From assembly GCA_030765645.1 (NCBI GenBank), contig JAVCCE010000073.1, positions 1-64,000 on the forward strand: a DNA stretch of 64,000 bases. Reading direction: 5' to 3'. Shown one piece after another: positions 1 through 55,029 of the stretch (position 1 is its first letter; each line of letters begins with the position of its first letter). Under the pieces are notes generated by a model. The model was not told the DNA's origin, ran no database searches, and worked only from the letters and a program-made list of their open reading frames with translations. This stretch comes from Candidatus Hinthialibacter antarcticus. Lineage in GTDB: Bacteria > Hinthialibacterota > Hinthialibacteria > Hinthialibacterales > Hinthialibacteraceae. Position numbers and translations under genes: made by a program.

Positions 1-116
1 GCTCCCAGAGTTCCACCCATGCCTGATTGGTTTGTCAATTTGTGAAATGCCAGAGCCTGTTTCTGAATAAAAATTATAGCCATCCATCAATGTAAGTACT
101 CACTTACCGGATGAAC
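1..116 (+). repeat. Dispersed repeat copy A: right arm of a hairpin plus ~93-nt tail
   Basis: Bases 1-23 match the right arm of the hairpin repeat seen at 3900-3965 and 40074-40153; the left arm lies outside the window. Bases 24-116 are a tail found again at about 3966-4053, 34736-34829 and 48241-48332. The tail carries a conserved core CATCCATCAATG followed by a small hairpin (GTAAGT/ACTTAC) and ends in GGATGAACC. This copy stands directly upstream of the asparaginase gene, so it may lie in that gene's leader. Confidence 0.75.
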
Positions 117-208
117 CGATCATGTTTTTATTGATACGCTATTGAATCTTGCACGAACTTCGATACATTGAAGAATATAAAAAGGTTTCTAACGAAAGGC
201 AAAAAGGT

Positions 209-3792: not shown

Positions 3793-4192
3793 CAATCCCC
3801 ATATACTTGACTGTCTACTGCGACAATTTATTCATAAAAAAGGTTCTTCCGAAAACGGGGTACTTTTTTTATAAATTCAATTGAGATTTCGCTGCATGCG
3901 GCATGGGTACAACTCTGCTCGCTTCAGTGCGGGCTTTCAGGCCCTTCCAGAGTTGCATCCATGCCTCATTTTATTTGTGAATTTTGACATGACGGAATAC
4001 GTTTTTCTAAACACAATTATAGCTATCCATCAATAACTAGGTACTCAATTACGGGATGAACCTTTTTTTTAGTACGAATACCATTGATTCACGCTTTGGG
4101 CAAGCGGCTATCCCCTATACTTTTCATTGTATTCATAGATATTAATTGAGATGCAACTGAAATAAAATCCTCATTCAGGCGTACTATATACT
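3793..4192 (+). other. Intergenic region: weak terminator, hairpin repeat B and tail
   Basis: No gene is visible. At about 3833-3871 an A-rich/T-rich imperfect hairpin ending in seven Ts may terminate the SDR gene. The hairpin repeat follows at 3900-3965 and its tail at 3966-4053. A TATACT (4116-4121) is a possible -10 for the zinc-ribbon gene, but no convincing -35 accompanies it. Confidence 0.6.
3900..4053 (+). repeat. Dispersed hairpin repeat copy B with tail
   Basis: The outer arms GGCATGGGTACAACTCTG (3900-3917) and CAGAGTTGCATCCATGCC (3948-3965) pair over about 18 positions with a few mismatches. The loop CTCGCTTCAGTGCGGGC... contains an inner GGGC/GCCC hairpin. It is followed by a diverged copy of the tail ending GGGATGAACC. 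Compared with copy D, this copy lacks the GTGCACAGGCGCTC part of the loop. Confidence 0.85.
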
Positions 4193-4601: not shown

Positions 4602-5189
4602 ATGACTGCACTCGGTGGTTTAATTGGAGTTTTCGGCATGATTATCATGGTCTTTCTTGTATTGATTATCGGCTTGGCGCTGTGGTTTATTGGCGCCTAT
4701 AACGGATTGATCCGTTTTCGTAATGAGGTGAAAAACGCCTGGGCGCAGATCGACGTTCAACTCAAGCGCCGACATGATTTGATCCCCAATTTGGTCGAGA
4801 CCGTAAAGGGATACGCCGGGCATGAGAAATCGACTTTCGAGGAAGTGGTCCAGGCGCGTTCGCAAGCGGTGAATGCGAATTCCGTCCCTGAACAGGCGCA
4901 GGCGGAGTCGATGTTATCGGGCGCATTGGGGCGCATGATGCTGCTCGTAGAAAATTACCCTGACCTCAAAGCGAACCAGAACTTTTTGGCGCTGCAAGAA
5001 GAACTGACCTCAACCGAAAATAAGTTGGGATTTGCGCGACAATTTTATAATGACTCGGTGATGAAATACAACACTCAGATTCAAAGCATCCCGACGAATA
5101 TTGTCGCGGGGATGTTCAACTTTGGCGAAGAGCCGTTCTTCGAACTGGATGACCAGGCGGAACGCGAAGCGCCTCAAGTGAAATTTTAG
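4602..5189 (+). CDS. lemA: LemA family membrane protein
   Basis: LemA proteins have one N-terminal transmembrane helix and a long helical cytoplasmic or periplasmic domain. They are often paired with HtpX/M48 proteases or TPM-domain proteins. Residues about 5-33 form the membrane helix. The family hallmarks YNGLIRFRNEVKNAWAQIDV and LKRRHDLIPNLVETVKGYAGHE follow, and the C-terminus has the conserved EEPFFE...APQVKF ending. At 195 aa the length is typical. The gene begins 1 nt after the zinc-ribbon gene, with GGGAA as ribosome site, so the two are translationally linked. The M48 protease is the next gene, after a repeat-containing spacer. Confidence 0.93.
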   Translation: MTALGGLIGVFGMIIMVFLVLIIGLALWFIGAYNGLIRFRNEVKNAWAQIDVQLKRRHDLIPNLVETVKGYAGHEKSTFEEVVQARSQAVNANSVPEQAQAESMLSGALGRMMLLVENYPDLKANQNFLALQEELTSTENKLGFARQFYNDSVMKYNTQIQSIPTNIVAGMFNFGEEPFFELDDQAEREAPQVKF

Positions 5190-5408
5190 TTTGTGAAAAG
5201 ACGCCTCGGAGTTGGGTTACGCTTGTCTCCGTGTTTCACAGGCGCTCAGTGAGACGCCCCAACGCTGGTATGTAGAAACTGATCAAATACAAGGGGAGGG
5301 CGAACCTCCTGGTGAGCCAAGTATAAAAAAGCATATCAATTTTTTGCGGCTCGGCGGGAGCCTCGCCCTCCTCAAATTATTTATCTCGAAATTAGTGGTT
5401 TTAAACCT
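5190..5408. repeat. Repeat-filled spacer between lemA and the M48 gene
   Basis: Bases 5211-5263 form a hairpin (GTTGGG/CCCAAC outside, GTCTC/GAGAC inside) whose loop, with ACAGGCGCTC, matches the dispersed hairpin family. Bases 5293-5371 are an imperfect inverted repeat: left arm GGGGAGGGCGAACCTCC..., right arm ...GGAGCCTCGCCCTCC. The same pair recurs at 54572-54652 and, reversed, at 51587-51676. No gene. Confidence 0.75.
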
Positions 5409-6827
5409 ATGTGGGAAGCGATACGCAGCAATCAACGCCGTTCAACAGTGCTCATCATTATGATGGGCGTTATTTTGGTTGCGCTGGGCGCGACGATTGG
5501 ATTGTTTGTTGATCCACGCGCGGGCGGAGCGTTTGGCGCGGTCGGCGCATTGGCGCTGTGGTTTTTTCTGTATCTGATCGCGATTTTTCAAGGCGATTCC
5601 ATTTTGCTCGGCGTCAGCGGCGCGGTGCGTATCAAAGAAAAATTTGAAGCGCCGCAGTTATGGAACATCGTCGAAGAAATGACTATCGCGTCCGGCTTGA
5701 AAAAAATGCCCGCAATTTACATTATCAACACCGACGCGCTGAATGCCTTCGCTGTTGGACGGCGTCCAGAAAAAGCTGCTGTTGCGGTGACCTCAGGGCT
5801 GATGAAGAAGCTCAGCCGCGATGAACTGCAGGGCGTGGTCGCGCATGAGATCGGGCATATCAAAAATCTCGATATCAAATTCATGACCATGGCGGCGGTG
5901 ATGATGGGCAGCATCGTTATGATCTCCGACGTGTTTCTGCGTTCGTTGTGGTATGGGTCAATGATGGGGGGACGGCGGAGGTCGCGTTCGAATAACGACG
6001 GCGGCGCCCAGTTGATCGTTATGTTGGCTGCGCTGATTCTGGCGATTTTAGCGCCGATTCTGGCGCAGATGCTTTACTTCGCCTGTTCGCGGCAGCGGGA
6101 ATACCTAGCCGACGCATCAGGCGCGTTGTTTACCCGATATCCCAACGGGCTGGCCTCTGCGCTAGAGAAGATTTCAGGGGGGACGATTGCCGCCAAACAA
6201 GTCAATCGTACGCTCGCGCCGATGTACATCATCAATCCATTACAAGCGCATTCATCCGCCGTGGGCTTGTTTTCCACTCATCCCCCGACGAAAAAACGAA
6301 TTGATATTTTGCGTTCCATGTCCGGCGCCGGGCTGCGCGAATATGAACGGGCTTACCAGGAGTCGCTTGGAACCAAACGCGGTTGCATTGGCGAACGGTC
6401 GTTGCATGAAGCCGAAGAGGTTGGCGTCCGCGAAAGCAGCGTCAAACCTTCTTCAAAGAAAAAAGGGTTGGAGCAGATTCGTGAAATCAATGATTTATTC
6501 GCCCGCGTAGACGGCCTGCTGCCGATTGCCTGCGTCTGCGGGATGCAATTGAAAATTCCCCAAGAGTATAAAAAAGACCAGGTCGCCTGCCCACGTTGCG
6601 GCGTCGCGCATGAGGTCCCGAAAGCGAAGCCGGGCGCTGCGAAGCAATCGCAAACCTACCAGCGGTCTGGCGGCGGTTGGCAATCGTTTCGCTGCCAATG
6701 CGGCAAGACGGTTCAGCTCAGCCCGAAGTTTTCAGGCGAGTCGATCAATTGCCAAGGCTGTGGAGATTCGATTAAAATAGAGAGCGGCGCACAACGAAGA
6801 AAAACCAGCAAAAGGGGAGACGCATGA
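5409..6827 (+). CDS. M48-family (HtpX-like) membrane metalloprotease with C-terminal zinc ribbons
   Basis: An integral-membrane zinc endopeptidase of the HtpX type, expected to degrade damaged membrane proteins. Two transmembrane helices span about residues 12-33 and 43-60. The zinc-binding HEIGH lies at 146-150, and REYLADA (in the CSRQREYLADASG segment) supplies the third ligand. After the ~310-residue protease domain the protein continues with a tail holding two CxC...CxxC ribbons: CVCGMQL...CPRCG, then CQCGKTV...CQGCG. This extension makes 472 aa against roughly 290 for standard HtpX. The gene follows lemA, a frequent association, and overlaps the next gene by an ATGA junction. Start at ATG 5409. 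Confidence 0.9.
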   Translation: MWEAIRSNQRRSTVLIIMMGVILVALGATIGLFVDPRAGGAFGAVGALALWFFLYLIAIFQGDSILLGVSGAVRIKEKFEAPQLWNIVEEMTIASGLKKMPAIYIINTDALNAFAVGRRPEKAAVAVTSGLMKKLSRDELQGVVAHEIGHIKNLDIKFMTMAAVMMGSIVMISDVFLRSLWYGSMMGGRRRSRSNNDGGAQLIVMLAALILAILAPILAQMLYFACSRQREYLADASGALFTRYPNGLASALEKISGGTIAAKQVNRTLAPMYIINPLQAHSSAVGLFSTHPPTKKRIDILRSMSGAGLREYERAYQESLGTKRGCIGERSLHEAEEVGVRESSVKPSSKKKGLEQIREINDLFARVDGLLPIACVCGMQLKIPQEYKKDQVACPRCGVAHEVPKAKPGAAKQSQTYQRSGGGWQSFRCQCGKTVQLSPKFSGESINCQGCGDSIKIESGAQRRKTSKRGDA

Positions 6828-8218
6828 GATCGCTCATTACATGTATTTTGGGGTTGGCTTGTATTTCAACATTCGCGCAAGAAGCGCAGTGGCAGGGGCC
6901 TTCGGTGGATTTTTCGCATGGGGCGCTGCATGTTTCTGAAAACCAGCGCTTTCTTGTCCATCAAGATGGTACGCCGTTTTTTTATCTGGGAGATACGGCT
7001 TGGGAACTGTTTCATCGTTTGAACAGGGAAGAAGCGGAGCAGTATTTAGAGAACCGCCGCCAGAAAGGCATGAACGTCATTCAGGCGGTCGGGCTGGCCG
7101 AACTCGACGGCCTCAACACGCCAAACGCCTACGGTGAAAAACCGTTGATTGATAACGACCCGACAAAACCCAATGAGAAGTACTTTGAGCACGTCGATTT
7201 CATCGTTAACACAGCGAAAGAAAAAGGCTTGTATATCGGGTTTCTGCCAACCTGGGGCGATAAGGCGACCAAAGCCTGGGGGCAGGGGCCGGTCATTCTC
7301 ACCAATGATAATACTGAAGACGCCCGCGCCTATGGACGCTTTTTGGGCGAACGCTATAAAGACGCGCCTAACATCATCTGGATTCTAATCGGCGACCGCG
7401 ACGCCGAAGGCTATGAAGCCATCTGGCGGGCGATGGCGAAAGGCATTGGCGAAGGCGACCGCGGCGCGCATCTCATCACTTGCCATCCAATGGGTGGAAT
7501 GTCATCTTCGAAATGGTTCCATGACGACAATTGGCTCGATTTTAATATGCTGCAATCCGGGCATGGTTCGTTCGATAATACAAACTACAAGATGATTGAC
7601 GCTGACTACAATAGAAAGCCGACTAAACCAACTCTCGACGGCGAACCGCGTTATGAAAACCACCCGGTCAACTGGAAGCCGGAGAACGGCTGGTTCAATG
7701 ACTTCGATGTGCGCCAAGCAGCGTATTGGGGCGTGTTCGCGGGTGGATTGGGGACGACGTATGGTTGCCACGACATTTGGCAGATGGTGGCGCCGGGACA
7801 TACGCCCATTTCATCTGCGCGGGGAAGTTGGGACGGTTCGCTGGACCTTCCCGGCGTCTTTGACATGATCCACTTGCGCAAACTCATGGAATCGCGCCCG
7901 TTTTTTGATCGCGTTCCTGACCCGTCGCTGATCGCTGAGGGGCAATTCGATGACGGGCGTCATTTGCAGGCAACGCGCGGCAAGGATTATGCGTTTGTGT
8001 ATGTCCCCTATGGGACCAATTTCAAATTGAATATGGGCAAAATCTCCGGCGACAAATCAAACGCCTGGTGGTTTAATCCGCGAGATGGCAAAGCGGGCGA
8101 ACTGTTTGAAGTGAAGAATGAAGGCGTTTATGAATTTGATCCGCCTGGAGAACCCAAACGCGGCAACGACTGGGTGTTGGTGTTAGACGACGCATCGAAA
8201 GGGTATAAACCGCTGTAA
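6824..8218 (+). CDS. Secreted DUF4038 glycoside-hydrolase-like (apiosidase-like) protein
   Basis: The sequence GTPFFYLGDTAWELFHRL, with the following MNVIQAV strand, is the opening of DUF4038, a TIM-barrel family that includes apiosidases and related glycosidases. The last ~90 residues (WWFNPRDG...) fit the 'putative collagen-binding domain' usually found after DUF4038. The N-terminal ~18 residues form a Sec signal peptide. WILIGDRDAEG in mid-domain may hold an active-site acid. The start codon overlaps the stop of the M48 gene (ATGA) and has AAGGGGAG upstream, so it is the last gene of that operon. A hairpin with a T run at 8245-8327 probably ends the transcript. The substrate is not evident. 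Confidence 0.8.
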   Translation: MRSLITCILGLACISTFAQEAQWQGPSVDFSHGALHVSENQRFLVHQDGTPFFYLGDTAWELFHRLNREEAEQYLENRRQKGMNVIQAVGLAELDGLNTPNAYGEKPLIDNDPTKPNEKYFEHVDFIVNTAKEKGLYIGFLPTWGDKATKAWGQGPVILTNDNTEDARAYGRFLGERYKDAPNIIWILIGDRDAEGYEAIWRAMAKGIGEGDRGAHLITCHPMGGMSSSKWFHDDNWLDFNMLQSGHGSFDNTNYKMIDADYNRKPTKPTLDGEPRYENHPVNWKPENGWFNDFDVRQAAYWGVFAGGLGTTYGCHDIWQMVAPGHTPISSARGSWDGSLDLPGVFDMIHLRKLMESRPFFDRVPDPSLIAEGQFDDGRHLQATRGKDYAFVYVPYGTNFKLNMGKISGDKSNAWWFNPRDGKAGELFEVKNEGVYEFDPPGEPKRGNDWVLVLDDASKGYKPL

Positions 8219-8244
8219 GTTCAACGGTAAGGTTTCCAAAAGGG

Positions 8245-8327
8245 CGGGTATGTCTCTCTTCGCTTCAGTGCGCGCTTTCATGCGCTTATGCACAGGCGCT
8301 CACAGAGACATCCCCGTCTTTTTTTAT
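8245..8327 (+). terminator. Terminator formed by a dispersed hairpin copy
   Basis: A 12-13 bp outer stem with one mismatch encloses a loop (CGCTTCAGTGCGCGC...ACAGGCGCTC) matching repeats B and D. The hairpin is followed by CGTCTTTTTTT. In this copy the inner hairpin is GCGC/GCGC instead of GGGC/GCCC. Confidence 0.75.
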
Positions 8328-23408: not shown

Positions 23409-23789
23409 GAAAATAAATCTGCGGATGAAATTGTAGGGGCGCAGCGTGCTGCACCCTTTTTTAAAGGTAGACGCTGGTATCTTTTTTTAGCTCATCCGGG
23501 ACTTGAGTCATTCTCTGTACTCCTCGGTGTTGTGTTCCGCTTGTCTCCGGGCGGCCTTATTGGCCGCTTCCTACGAAAGCCGCTCCACACAATCACCTGC
23601 GTCGCTTGGAGAATGTCGAGTAACAATTAGTGTCAGTGCTCGATTTTAGGTATAATTATTCTCTTCGCTTCAATTCACGCTTTCAGGCGCTCGAGGAAAC
23701 ACACCTACACCTTCTTTCTTTTATTTCTTTTACAATACGTGGAACAAGAAACTTTTGAAAAAATCAATTTGAGCCATAATCAATGCACT
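23409..23789. other. Repeat-bearing intergenic region before the Nudix gene
   Basis: Bases 23433-23456 are a copy of a 24-nt palindromic repeat (GCGCAGCGTGCTGC core) followed by CCCTTTTTT, which could terminate the DUF1501 operon. About 23525-23605 is a degenerate hairpin-family copy (GGTG..TTGTGT arms with an inner GCGGCC/GGCCGC hairpin). A further fragment lies at about 23647-23708 (CTTCGCTTCAATTCACGCTTTCAGGCGCTC in two parts). TACAAT at 23731-23736 may be a -10 for the next gene. No gene seen. Confidence 0.6.
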
Positions 23790-34403: not shown

Positions 34404-34514
34404 ACAACATCTCCTTTTTTTATTCTTGACTCTGTATATAAATAATTGAATTTCAATTTAAAGGTTCTTCCAAAAACTGATCGCTTCCGTGCGGGCTTTC
34501 AGGCCCTTTTGCAA

Positions 34515-34698
34515 CAATGTCATTGACTTAAAACTTTTAGCCCCCCTTTTTAAGGGGGGACGGCGCTGAAAGCGCCAGGGGGGATTCGGGCGCAACACGT
34601 TGCGCCTCTACAGGGCTGATATTTTTGATTTCGTCGCATCAAGGTCTGCCCTCACTTCGCGACGCCTTGGCTTGCCACCCCTTAAGTCAATGACATTG
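34515..34698. mobile_element. MITE-like insertion with 17-nt perfect inverted ends
   Basis: CAATGTCATTGACTTAA (34515-34531) and TTAAGTCAATGACATTG (34682-34698) are perfect inverted repeats bounding about 184 nt without a gene. The flanks match an uninterrupted hairpin repeat (compare 40102-40135), so the element entered that repeat. CCTT occurs on both sides and could be a target duplication, though six unmatched bases at the left end leave this ambiguous. It contains a copy of the 24-nt palindrome (34588-34611). Confidence 0.7.
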
Positions 34699-34735
34699 CC
34701 TTATGCACAGGCGCTCCCAGAGTTGCACCCATGCC

Positions 34736-34829
34736 AGAATTGGTTTGTCAATTTTTGATATGTCAGATTTCTTTTTTGTAATCAAAATTATGACCATCCA
34801 TCAATGCAAGTATTCGATTACAGGATGAA
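34736..34829 (+). repeat. Tail repeat copy C
   Basis: Diverged copy of the ~93-nt tail: GGTTTGTCAATTT, AATTATGACCATCCATCAATG and GATTACAGGATGAATC align with copies at 24-116 and 48241-48332. Confidence 0.75.
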
Positions 34830-34844
34830 TCAAATTAACATTTT

Positions 34845-40073: not shown

Positions 40074-40153
40074 GGCATGGGCGCCACTCCGCTCGCTTCA
40101 GTGCGGGCTTCCAGGCCCTTGTGCACAGGCGCTCCCAGAGTGGCGCCCATGCC
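40074..40153. repeat. Dispersed hairpin repeat copy D (complete)
   Basis: Perfect 16-bp outer stem GGCATGGGCGCCACTC / GAGTGGCGCCCATGCC around a 48-nt loop containing the conserved CTCGCTTCAGTGCGGGCTT and GTGCACAGGCGCTCC. The tail is absent here. The inner stem positions that read TGCAA/TTGCA in other copies read CGCC/GGCG here, with pairing kept. Confidence 0.88.
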
Positions 40154-48227: not shown

Positions 48228-48240
48228 TTCCACTACTGAC

Positions 48241-48332
48241 TGATTGGTTTGTCAATTTGTGAAATGCCGGAGCCTGTATCTGAATAAAGATTATGGTTAT
48301 CCATCAATGTAGGTACTCACTTAACGGATGAA
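48241..48332 (+). repeat. Tail repeat copy E (without hairpin)
   Basis: TGATTGGTTTGTCAATTTGTGAAATGCC, read in two parts, is nearly identical to bases 24-51. The rest (TATCCATCAATGTAGGTACTCACTTAACGGATGAACC in two parts) matches copy A. The hairpin half is missing, so the tail can occur alone. Confidence 0.85.
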
Positions 48333-48349
48333 CCAGAAGAAATGATGTT

Positions 48350-51529: not shown

Positions 51530-51780
51530 TGCAATAGCAGCCTGACGGATCTACTGAGTCGCGTTGCATGGTGGGCTAAATTAAAAGGGGAGGGCGAGGC
51601 TCCCGCCGAGCCGCGAATAATTGATACGCTATCTTAATTACCTGGCTCACCAGGAGCCAGCCTGCGGCAGGCAGAGTTCGTGAAACTAAATGCGAGATTA
51701 CTTCGGTCGTATACGCTCCCTCGTAATGACACGAACGTCTATTTAACCGGGCGCAGCACGCTGCGCCCCTACTATTCTGA
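51530..51780. repeat. Repeat island downstream of the second ECF operon
   Basis: Bases 51587-51676 are the GC-rich inverted repeat in reversed orientation (GAGGGCGAGGCTCCCGCC left, GGCTCACCAGGAGCC right; right end diverged). Bases about 51689-51732 (GAGATTACTTCGG...TCGTAATGAC) are the reverse of an element at 54661-54690. Bases 51749-51772 are the 24-nt palindrome in reverse. No gene. Confidence 0.75.
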
Positions 51781-54559: not shown

Positions 54560-55029
54560 TCTTGTATTTTCGGGAGGGCGAACCTCCTGGTGAGCCGGAT
54601 AAAACTAAAAGCAATTCTTGTTTTCGCGGCTCGGCGGGAGCCTCGCCCTCCCACGGATACGCGTCATTGAGAGCAAAGCGAAGCAATCTGCCTGCGATAG
54701 GCCGTGCAGTAATCTTGACCCATCGAAACCGAGAGCGCTTCGCTTGGCTAGTAGTGACACTATCCGCCTTGCCCTTGGCGATATGCGATAGAAAAAATAT
54801 TCGTAGACTTAATGGCGTCATTTGTATTCCTCTGCTATAGGAACTGCGGCTGGCTTCAAGGCCTCATACAAATCCCATGTCCATATTTTTACGTGTATAG
54901 CAGTTAGTGCACAAATAAAAATGAAAAAATAATCCAACTTTTCGTCTCCCACAGACACTTTATAAGTAGACGCAACAAGAACGGGCAACATAAGCACTAT
55001 GTTAAATGTTCTATTTGGGAGTCGGGACT
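54560..55029. other. Repeat island and leader of the sigma factor gene
   Basis: Bases 54572-54652 are the best copy of the GC-rich inverted repeat pair. Bases 54661-54690 (GTCATTGAGAGCAAAGCGAAG...) match a repeat also at 51689-51732 in reverse. The remaining ~200 nt are AT-rich and form the leader of the sigma factor gene; TATAAG near 54962 is a weak -10 candidate. No gene. Confidence 0.6.
54572..54652. repeat. GC-rich imperfect inverted repeat, best copy
   Basis: Left arm starts GGGAGGGCGAACCTCC (54572-54596). Right arm ends GGGAGCCTCGCCCTCCC (54628-54652). The arms pair with interruptions. The same unit occurs at 5293-5371 and, in reverse and diverged, at 51587-51676. Confidence 0.85.

Follow-up and report, generated by a model that had tools for sequence, protein, structure and literature searches.

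The window analyzed here, a stretch of 64,000 nucleotides, forms the start of contig C73 in a genome of 5.15 Mb and 78 contigs. At positions 40074-40153, a solitary hairpin sits in antisense orientation between two genes of the minus strand, with MITE-like flanking sequence on its left side only. Further copies of the hairpin occur in the window, either standing alone behind genes (type 2) or carried within ISL3-type MITEs (type 1). The features are as follows, with genes called by a custom gene caller.

1..118, + strand: right part of a MITE copy and the end of its hairpin; the contig starts inside the repeat
3842..4062, + strand: ISL3-type MITE with left end GGTTCTTCCG and right end GGATGAACC
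3900..3965, + strand: hairpin within the MITE at 3842-4062, covariance-model match of 50.9 bits
5204..5267, + strand: probable eroded type 2 hairpin, recognized by eye and motif scan, below the covariance-model threshold
8237..8324, + strand: type 2 standalone 3'-end hairpin, beginning 18 nt past the stop of the apiosidase-like gene 6824-8218
8261..8302, + strand: conserved tip domain of this type 2 copy (CGCTT..GTGC..hairpin..GCACAGGCGCTCA)
34463..34831, + strand: MITE copy whose hairpin is split by a second, unrelated MITE
34515..34698, + strand: the second MITE, 184 bp, located within the hairpin and bounded by inverted repeats CAATGTCATTGACTTAAG
40074..40153, + strand: focal solitary hairpin with MITE-type arms and a 16 bp perfect outer stem
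48228..48335, + strand: right part of a MITE copy, lacking the hairpin

The sites named in the original prediction at 3900-3965, 8245-8316, 40074-40153, and 1-23 exist as described, and the inner swap from GGGC/GCCC to GCGC/GCGC at 8245 is real. The MITE-borne copy at 34463-34831 was missing from its list. Although the listed sites share the hairpin, they do not form a uniform family, as those at 3900 and 1-23 are internal to MITEs while that at 8245 is a standalone 3'-end hairpin. The two sites proposed as degenerate copies fared differently. The one at 5211-5263 resembles by eye an eroded relative (CACAGGCGCTCA, GTGAGAC) that escapes the covariance model and begins approximately 15 nt past the stop of gene 4602-5189, whereas 23525-23605 shows no match to the family model. 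The latter hairpin (CGCTTGTCTCCGGGCGGCCTTATTGGCCGC) has the word CGCTTGTCTCCG in common with 5211-5240. In the copy at 3900-3965, the GCACAGGCGCT part is internally deleted. The copy at 8237-8324 folds with -42.7 kcal/mol (z -7.5) and is followed by a T7 tract at 8319-8325; the gene ahead of it matches the Pfam family Apiosidase.

The consensus hairpin is 80 nt long. Its outer stem comprises GG-NNN-GGG..., an internal mismatch, and then AACTC or GTCTC opposite GAGTT or GAGAC. Inward of these arms lie an asymmetric internal loop and the short helices P2 (CGCTT/AGGCG) and P3 (GTGC/GCAC), and innermost the sequence GGGC-TTNNN(N)-GCCC forms a small hairpin whose 3' bulge is rich in T. Relative to shuffled sequence, the 40074 and 8245 copies fold with z = -4.8 to -7.5, a range that extends to -9.5 when one L073 copy is added.

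The hairpin repeat family is real. The loop word CGCTTCAGTGCG recurs throughout the 5.15-Mb genome, with 342 matches at no more than one mismatch compared with 40 for the reversed pattern; within the window alone, this 11-nt word with two mismatches allowed does not exceed chance. A sequence-only profile applied to 2.78 Mb of the genome identified 154 copies that each span 46 or more model positions, corresponding by proportion to approximately 280 in the whole genome. Only one of the 122 full copies overlaps a called gene, and the rest are intergenic. Tandem duplicates occur at C1 147389/147524 and C57 19976/20754, and contig ends fall inside copies at window position 1 and in C11, C27, C39, C54, and C70. 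The claim that differing outer arms still pair was borne out across 59 mixed copies, in which 63 two-sided changes kept the pair, compared with 14.8 +/- 3.0 in shuffles (0/500). Searches beyond this genome returned little. Matches to a 17-nt core pattern stay at or near background in the 13 remaining genomes of the class, the covariance model found no match among the best 114 first-look candidates scored in each of 40 relatives, and the 25-nt core has no exact match in the GTDB r220 contigs, from which the source genome itself may be absent. In four genera of the family, the hairpin is missing from the 3' ends of orthologs of the window gene. No Rfam family matches in the window, and one hairpin copy searched against Rfam gave only sub-threshold matches, mostly to microRNA hairpin models. 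A search for eroded hairpins with TCTC/GAGA arms returned known copies and chance matches.

This one hairpin sequence exists as two populations. Type 1 copies extend beyond the hairpin on either side with additional conserved sequence, mostly to a total of 234 or 262 bp, and end in 24-bp inverted repeats (GGTTCTTCCG.../GGTTCATCCG...). They are flanked by 8-bp AT-rich target duplications, which are perfect in 14 of 34 cases and agree in at least seven of eight positions in 21 of 34 (swapped pairs, 3.3%). The genome also encodes ISL3 transposases (PF01610) as incomplete copies, mostly at contig ends, and the end of the transposase runs directly into the MITE right terminus, ...GCCATCCATCAATGTAGGTACTCATTTACCGGATGAACC; the match concerns the right end, and the left end of the full element is not seen. 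The inverted repeats, the target duplications, and the shared right terminus together identify type 1 as a hairpin-bearing ISL3-type MITE. Conservation inside this MITE reaches 94% in the hairpin, compared with 70-78% in the rest of the element. Approximately 38 more copies, including 40074-40153, lack both ends and have type 1-like arms with partial or no MITE flank.

The type 2 set consists of 29 curated copies in 2.78 Mb, with GTCTC/ATCTC arms and non-repeated flanks. Neither MITE end is present in 27 of the 29, and none has both. A same-strand gene lies upstream in 27 of 29 cases, usually with its stop 10-45 nt away, and the gene contexts are ++ in 13, +- in 14, -- in 2, and -+ in 0. In tandem gene contexts, the sense-to-antisense ratio is 13:2 for type 2 and 16:25 for MITE copies (Fisher p = 0.002). 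Similarly, CTCTCTTCGCT occurs within 100 nt of 654 gene ends 18 times in sense and once in antisense. The genes ahead of type 2, with translations read by eye, are mixed: they include GlyRS, ValRS, OTCase, TrpF, MtnA, and a DegT-type aminotransferase, and the window's apiosidase-like gene is also among them. Type 2 has one feature of a terminator, a stable GC-rich hairpin on the coding strand after the stop. The T fraction behind it is elevated (0.49 vs 0.29), and at least five Ts in the eight positions after the stem follow 13 of 29 copies, compared with 96 of 542 controls (p = 0.001), a trait that is not general. Canonical short terminators were detected at 542 gene ends 148 times in sense, 55 times in antisense, and 21 times in shuffled sequence; the 60 nt behind type 2 copies contained none.

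The stems of type 2 covary strongly. Across 28 copies, the score is 0.286, compared with 0.098 for shuffled and at most 0.065 for slid alignments. Two-sided change occurs at 14 of 30 pairs, several of which show four pair types, and column pairs 8-84 and 9-83 show all four Watson-Crick types. The paired stem extends beyond the repeat into the non-repeated flank, by 3.28 bp on average for the native flanks and 1.28 for swapped ones (0/2000 permutations); this effect is absent in a comparison set of mostly MITE-type copies (1.00 vs 0.93). In contrast to the stem, P2 and P3 are almost invariant, with 98.8% of their pairs formed in the 28 copies. The 5' arm retains the conserved Gs of GG-NNN-GGG in 25-27 of 28 copies, on either side of variable positions.

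Selection on pairing in type 2 is best supported by the contrast with the decay of MITE copies. The ratio of two-sided to one-sided arm changes is 29:17 in type 2 but 6:38 in MITE copies (p = 1.4e-6). The proposed selection on folded structure is therefore supported for the standalone copies and mostly not for the MITE copies, and uncompensated arm changes, named beforehand as evidence against the idea, are indeed seen in MITE copies but do not prevail in type 2. Since changes in the MITE copies are mostly one-sided, coupled mutation in any palindrome fails to explain the covariation of type 2. A difference in age between the populations is a possible caveat, but pairs would be lost, not regained, with greater age if selection were absent. 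Departures from pairing in the type 2 stem are equally often G-T and A-C (12 vs 11), and the antisense strand folds slightly better than the sense strand (-49.4 vs -46.1), so the pairing data alone do not identify the folding strand.

Three RAYT genes are present in the genome, and each is flanked by a palindromic repeat of its own:

L032:1354-1905, - strand: RAYT gene and flanks, with palindromic repeat GTAGGGTGGGTTCTTAACCCACC
L031:1330-1887, - strand: RAYT gene and flanks, with palindromic repeat GGGTGGCAAGGGC..GCCCTT
L033:1435-1901, + strand: frameshifted RAYT gene and flanks, with palindromic repeat GGGGAGGGCGAACCTCCTGGTGAGCC

NCBIfam NF047646 matches the two intact genes and gives a weak, below-cut-off match to the frameshifted third. 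Two hairpin copies lie approximately 200-400 nt from the frameshifted gene, outside its own repeats. Because the repeats flanking the three genes (GTAGGGTGGGTTCTTAACCCACC, GGGTGGCAAGGGC..., and GGGGAGGGCGAACCTCC) belong to other families, mobilization of the hairpin by RAYT was rejected, and the suggested RAYT link fails. The original choice between a mobile element and an RNA resolves into both, each for different copies, with the mobile ones using an ISL3-type DDE transposase.

The placement of type 2 on the coding strand after the stop, its stem-preserving change, and its T-rich tail fit a hairpin at the transcript end. Strand-locked placement combined with compensated change in the standalone copies points to selection at the RNA level. 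We consider it probable, from these sequence patterns, that type 2 is an mRNA 3'-end hairpin, a predicted intrinsic-type terminator, 3' stabilizer, or both, and that the ISL3 MITE captured a copy of it; the action at the RNA level, the terminator or stabilizer role, and the direction of capture are what we infer here. In such a mechanism, the 3' ends of mRNAs would include type 2 copies, which lie just past the stop codon on the coding strand and would fold into long stems capped by a conserved, internally looped tip. Any stem sequence would be tolerated if paired, so that matched changes would build up, while the constant tip may be read by something or may be young. A MITE would have captured one hairpin copy and been mobilized by an ISL3-family transposase, scattering copies in both orientations whose arms now decay mostly without compensation. 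Against uniform intrinsic termination, a clear T tract follows only about half of type 2; furthermore, a terminator does not require a near-invariant tip, and the absence of the hairpin at the window-gene orthologs in four genera also counts against this reading.

Type 2 might alternatively be a mobile REP-like palindrome whose placement behind genes reflects tolerated insertion. REPs typically sit behind genes, as type 2 does, and such an origin would agree with the high copy number, the intergenic location of all but one of 122 full copies, the tandem duplicates, and the absence from related genera. It is nevertheless unlikely, given the strand-locked orientation (13:2 in tandem contexts, 18:1 by k-mer), the missing tetranucleotide tag, the lack of an adjacent RAYT, and the compensated pairing that runs into non-repeated flank. 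That flank pairing, with site-varying arms around a nearly invariant tip, would also be expected if the tip domain inserted into the loops of pre-existing terminators, leaving variable arms that belong to the host site. The conserved Gs of the arms (GG-NNN-GGG), unlike random terminator stems, make this origin quite improbable.

Template switching between the arms could in principle keep them complementary by mutation rather than selection, and long palindromes are known to undergo template-switch correction of this quasipalindrome kind. The MITE copies serve as a control: with 6 two-sided and 38 one-sided changes in the same palindrome, the sequence as such is not self-correcting, and we rejected this explanation as very improbable. 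The near-invariant tip, the saturated stem, and the conservation of the hairpin within the MITE suggest either that something reads the tip or that the hairpin spread recently. The tip might be bound by a protein or small RNA acting on many transcripts, in a 3' UTR regulon or as an RNA-processing site, with termination secondary. P2, P3, and the loops are almost invariant in 28 copies whose stems are saturated with changes, and the hairpin is the best-kept part of the MITE; however, the host genes are a mixed housekeeping set and the binding partner is purely putative, which leaves this possibility doubtful. A lineage-specific mRNA 3'-end RNA element, its tip read by a dedicated protein or RNA and its copies spread by a transposon, is likewise rather doubtful. 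If it were true, scores of unrelated transcripts would share one end-processing or stability signal.

Among known systems, REP/REPIN elements with RAYT (REPs as defined in PMC8266576 and PMC3733652) resemble the family in being high-copy, intergenic, palindromic, and often behind genes. REP palindromes, however, span 20-50 nt rather than about 80 nt, carry a 5' GTAG/GTGG tetranucleotide where the hairpin has a site-specific flank before the stem and no shared tag, and flank RAYT, whereas the hairpin flanks none of the three and is strand-locked to the upstream gene. Type 1 agrees with ISL3-family MITEs in its GGTTC[TA]TCCG... inverted repeats, its 8-bp AT-rich target duplications, and a right end identical in sequence to the ISL3 transposase end in the same genome, but carries a hairpin that has a second, independent population at the 3' ends of genes. 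Type 2 shares with intrinsic terminators the coding-strand hairpin soon after the stop and, in about half of its copies, a T-rich tail; it differs in its ~80-nt length, in a conserved, internally looped tip common to many unrelated genes, and in a T tract that is weak or missing in half of the copies. Correia elements, ERIC, and NEMIS are small palindromic or MITE repeats able to fold in mRNA. Likened by description, they differ from the present family, whose standalone and transposon-borne populations evolve differently. The nearest idea is terminators built from DNA uptake sequences (PMC1852404, cited in PMC2267715), in which a repeated sequence lies within a terminator-like hairpin.

The two populations allow one palindrome to be compared within a genome with selection (behind genes) and without it (in the MITE), making compensated change readable as function without related species. 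They also illustrate how sequence may come to be shared between a transcript-end hairpin and a transposon, and warn that a conserved loop with a covarying stem may mix two populations of different biology.

Other repeats accompany the hairpin in this genome. The palindrome on the flanks of the frameshifted RAYT gene, GGGGAGGGCGAACCTCC/GGAGCCTCGCCCTCC, occurs in the window at 5285-5383, 51577-51656, and 54563-54652, and close to gene ends its k-mers strongly favor the coding strand (20 vs 2). A further palindrome, GGGGCGCAGC(G)TGCTGC(A)CCCC, has inverted copies at window positions 23433-23456 and 51749-51776. The second MITE of ~184 bp (CAATGTCATTGACTTAAG), with apparent 10-bp target duplications, is found at 34515-34698 of the window and at C11:221061, C55:5484, C63:74922, and C57:89779. 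Approximately 5 of its 16 paired copies lie inside or beside the hairpin family, far above the share of the genome that the family occupies.
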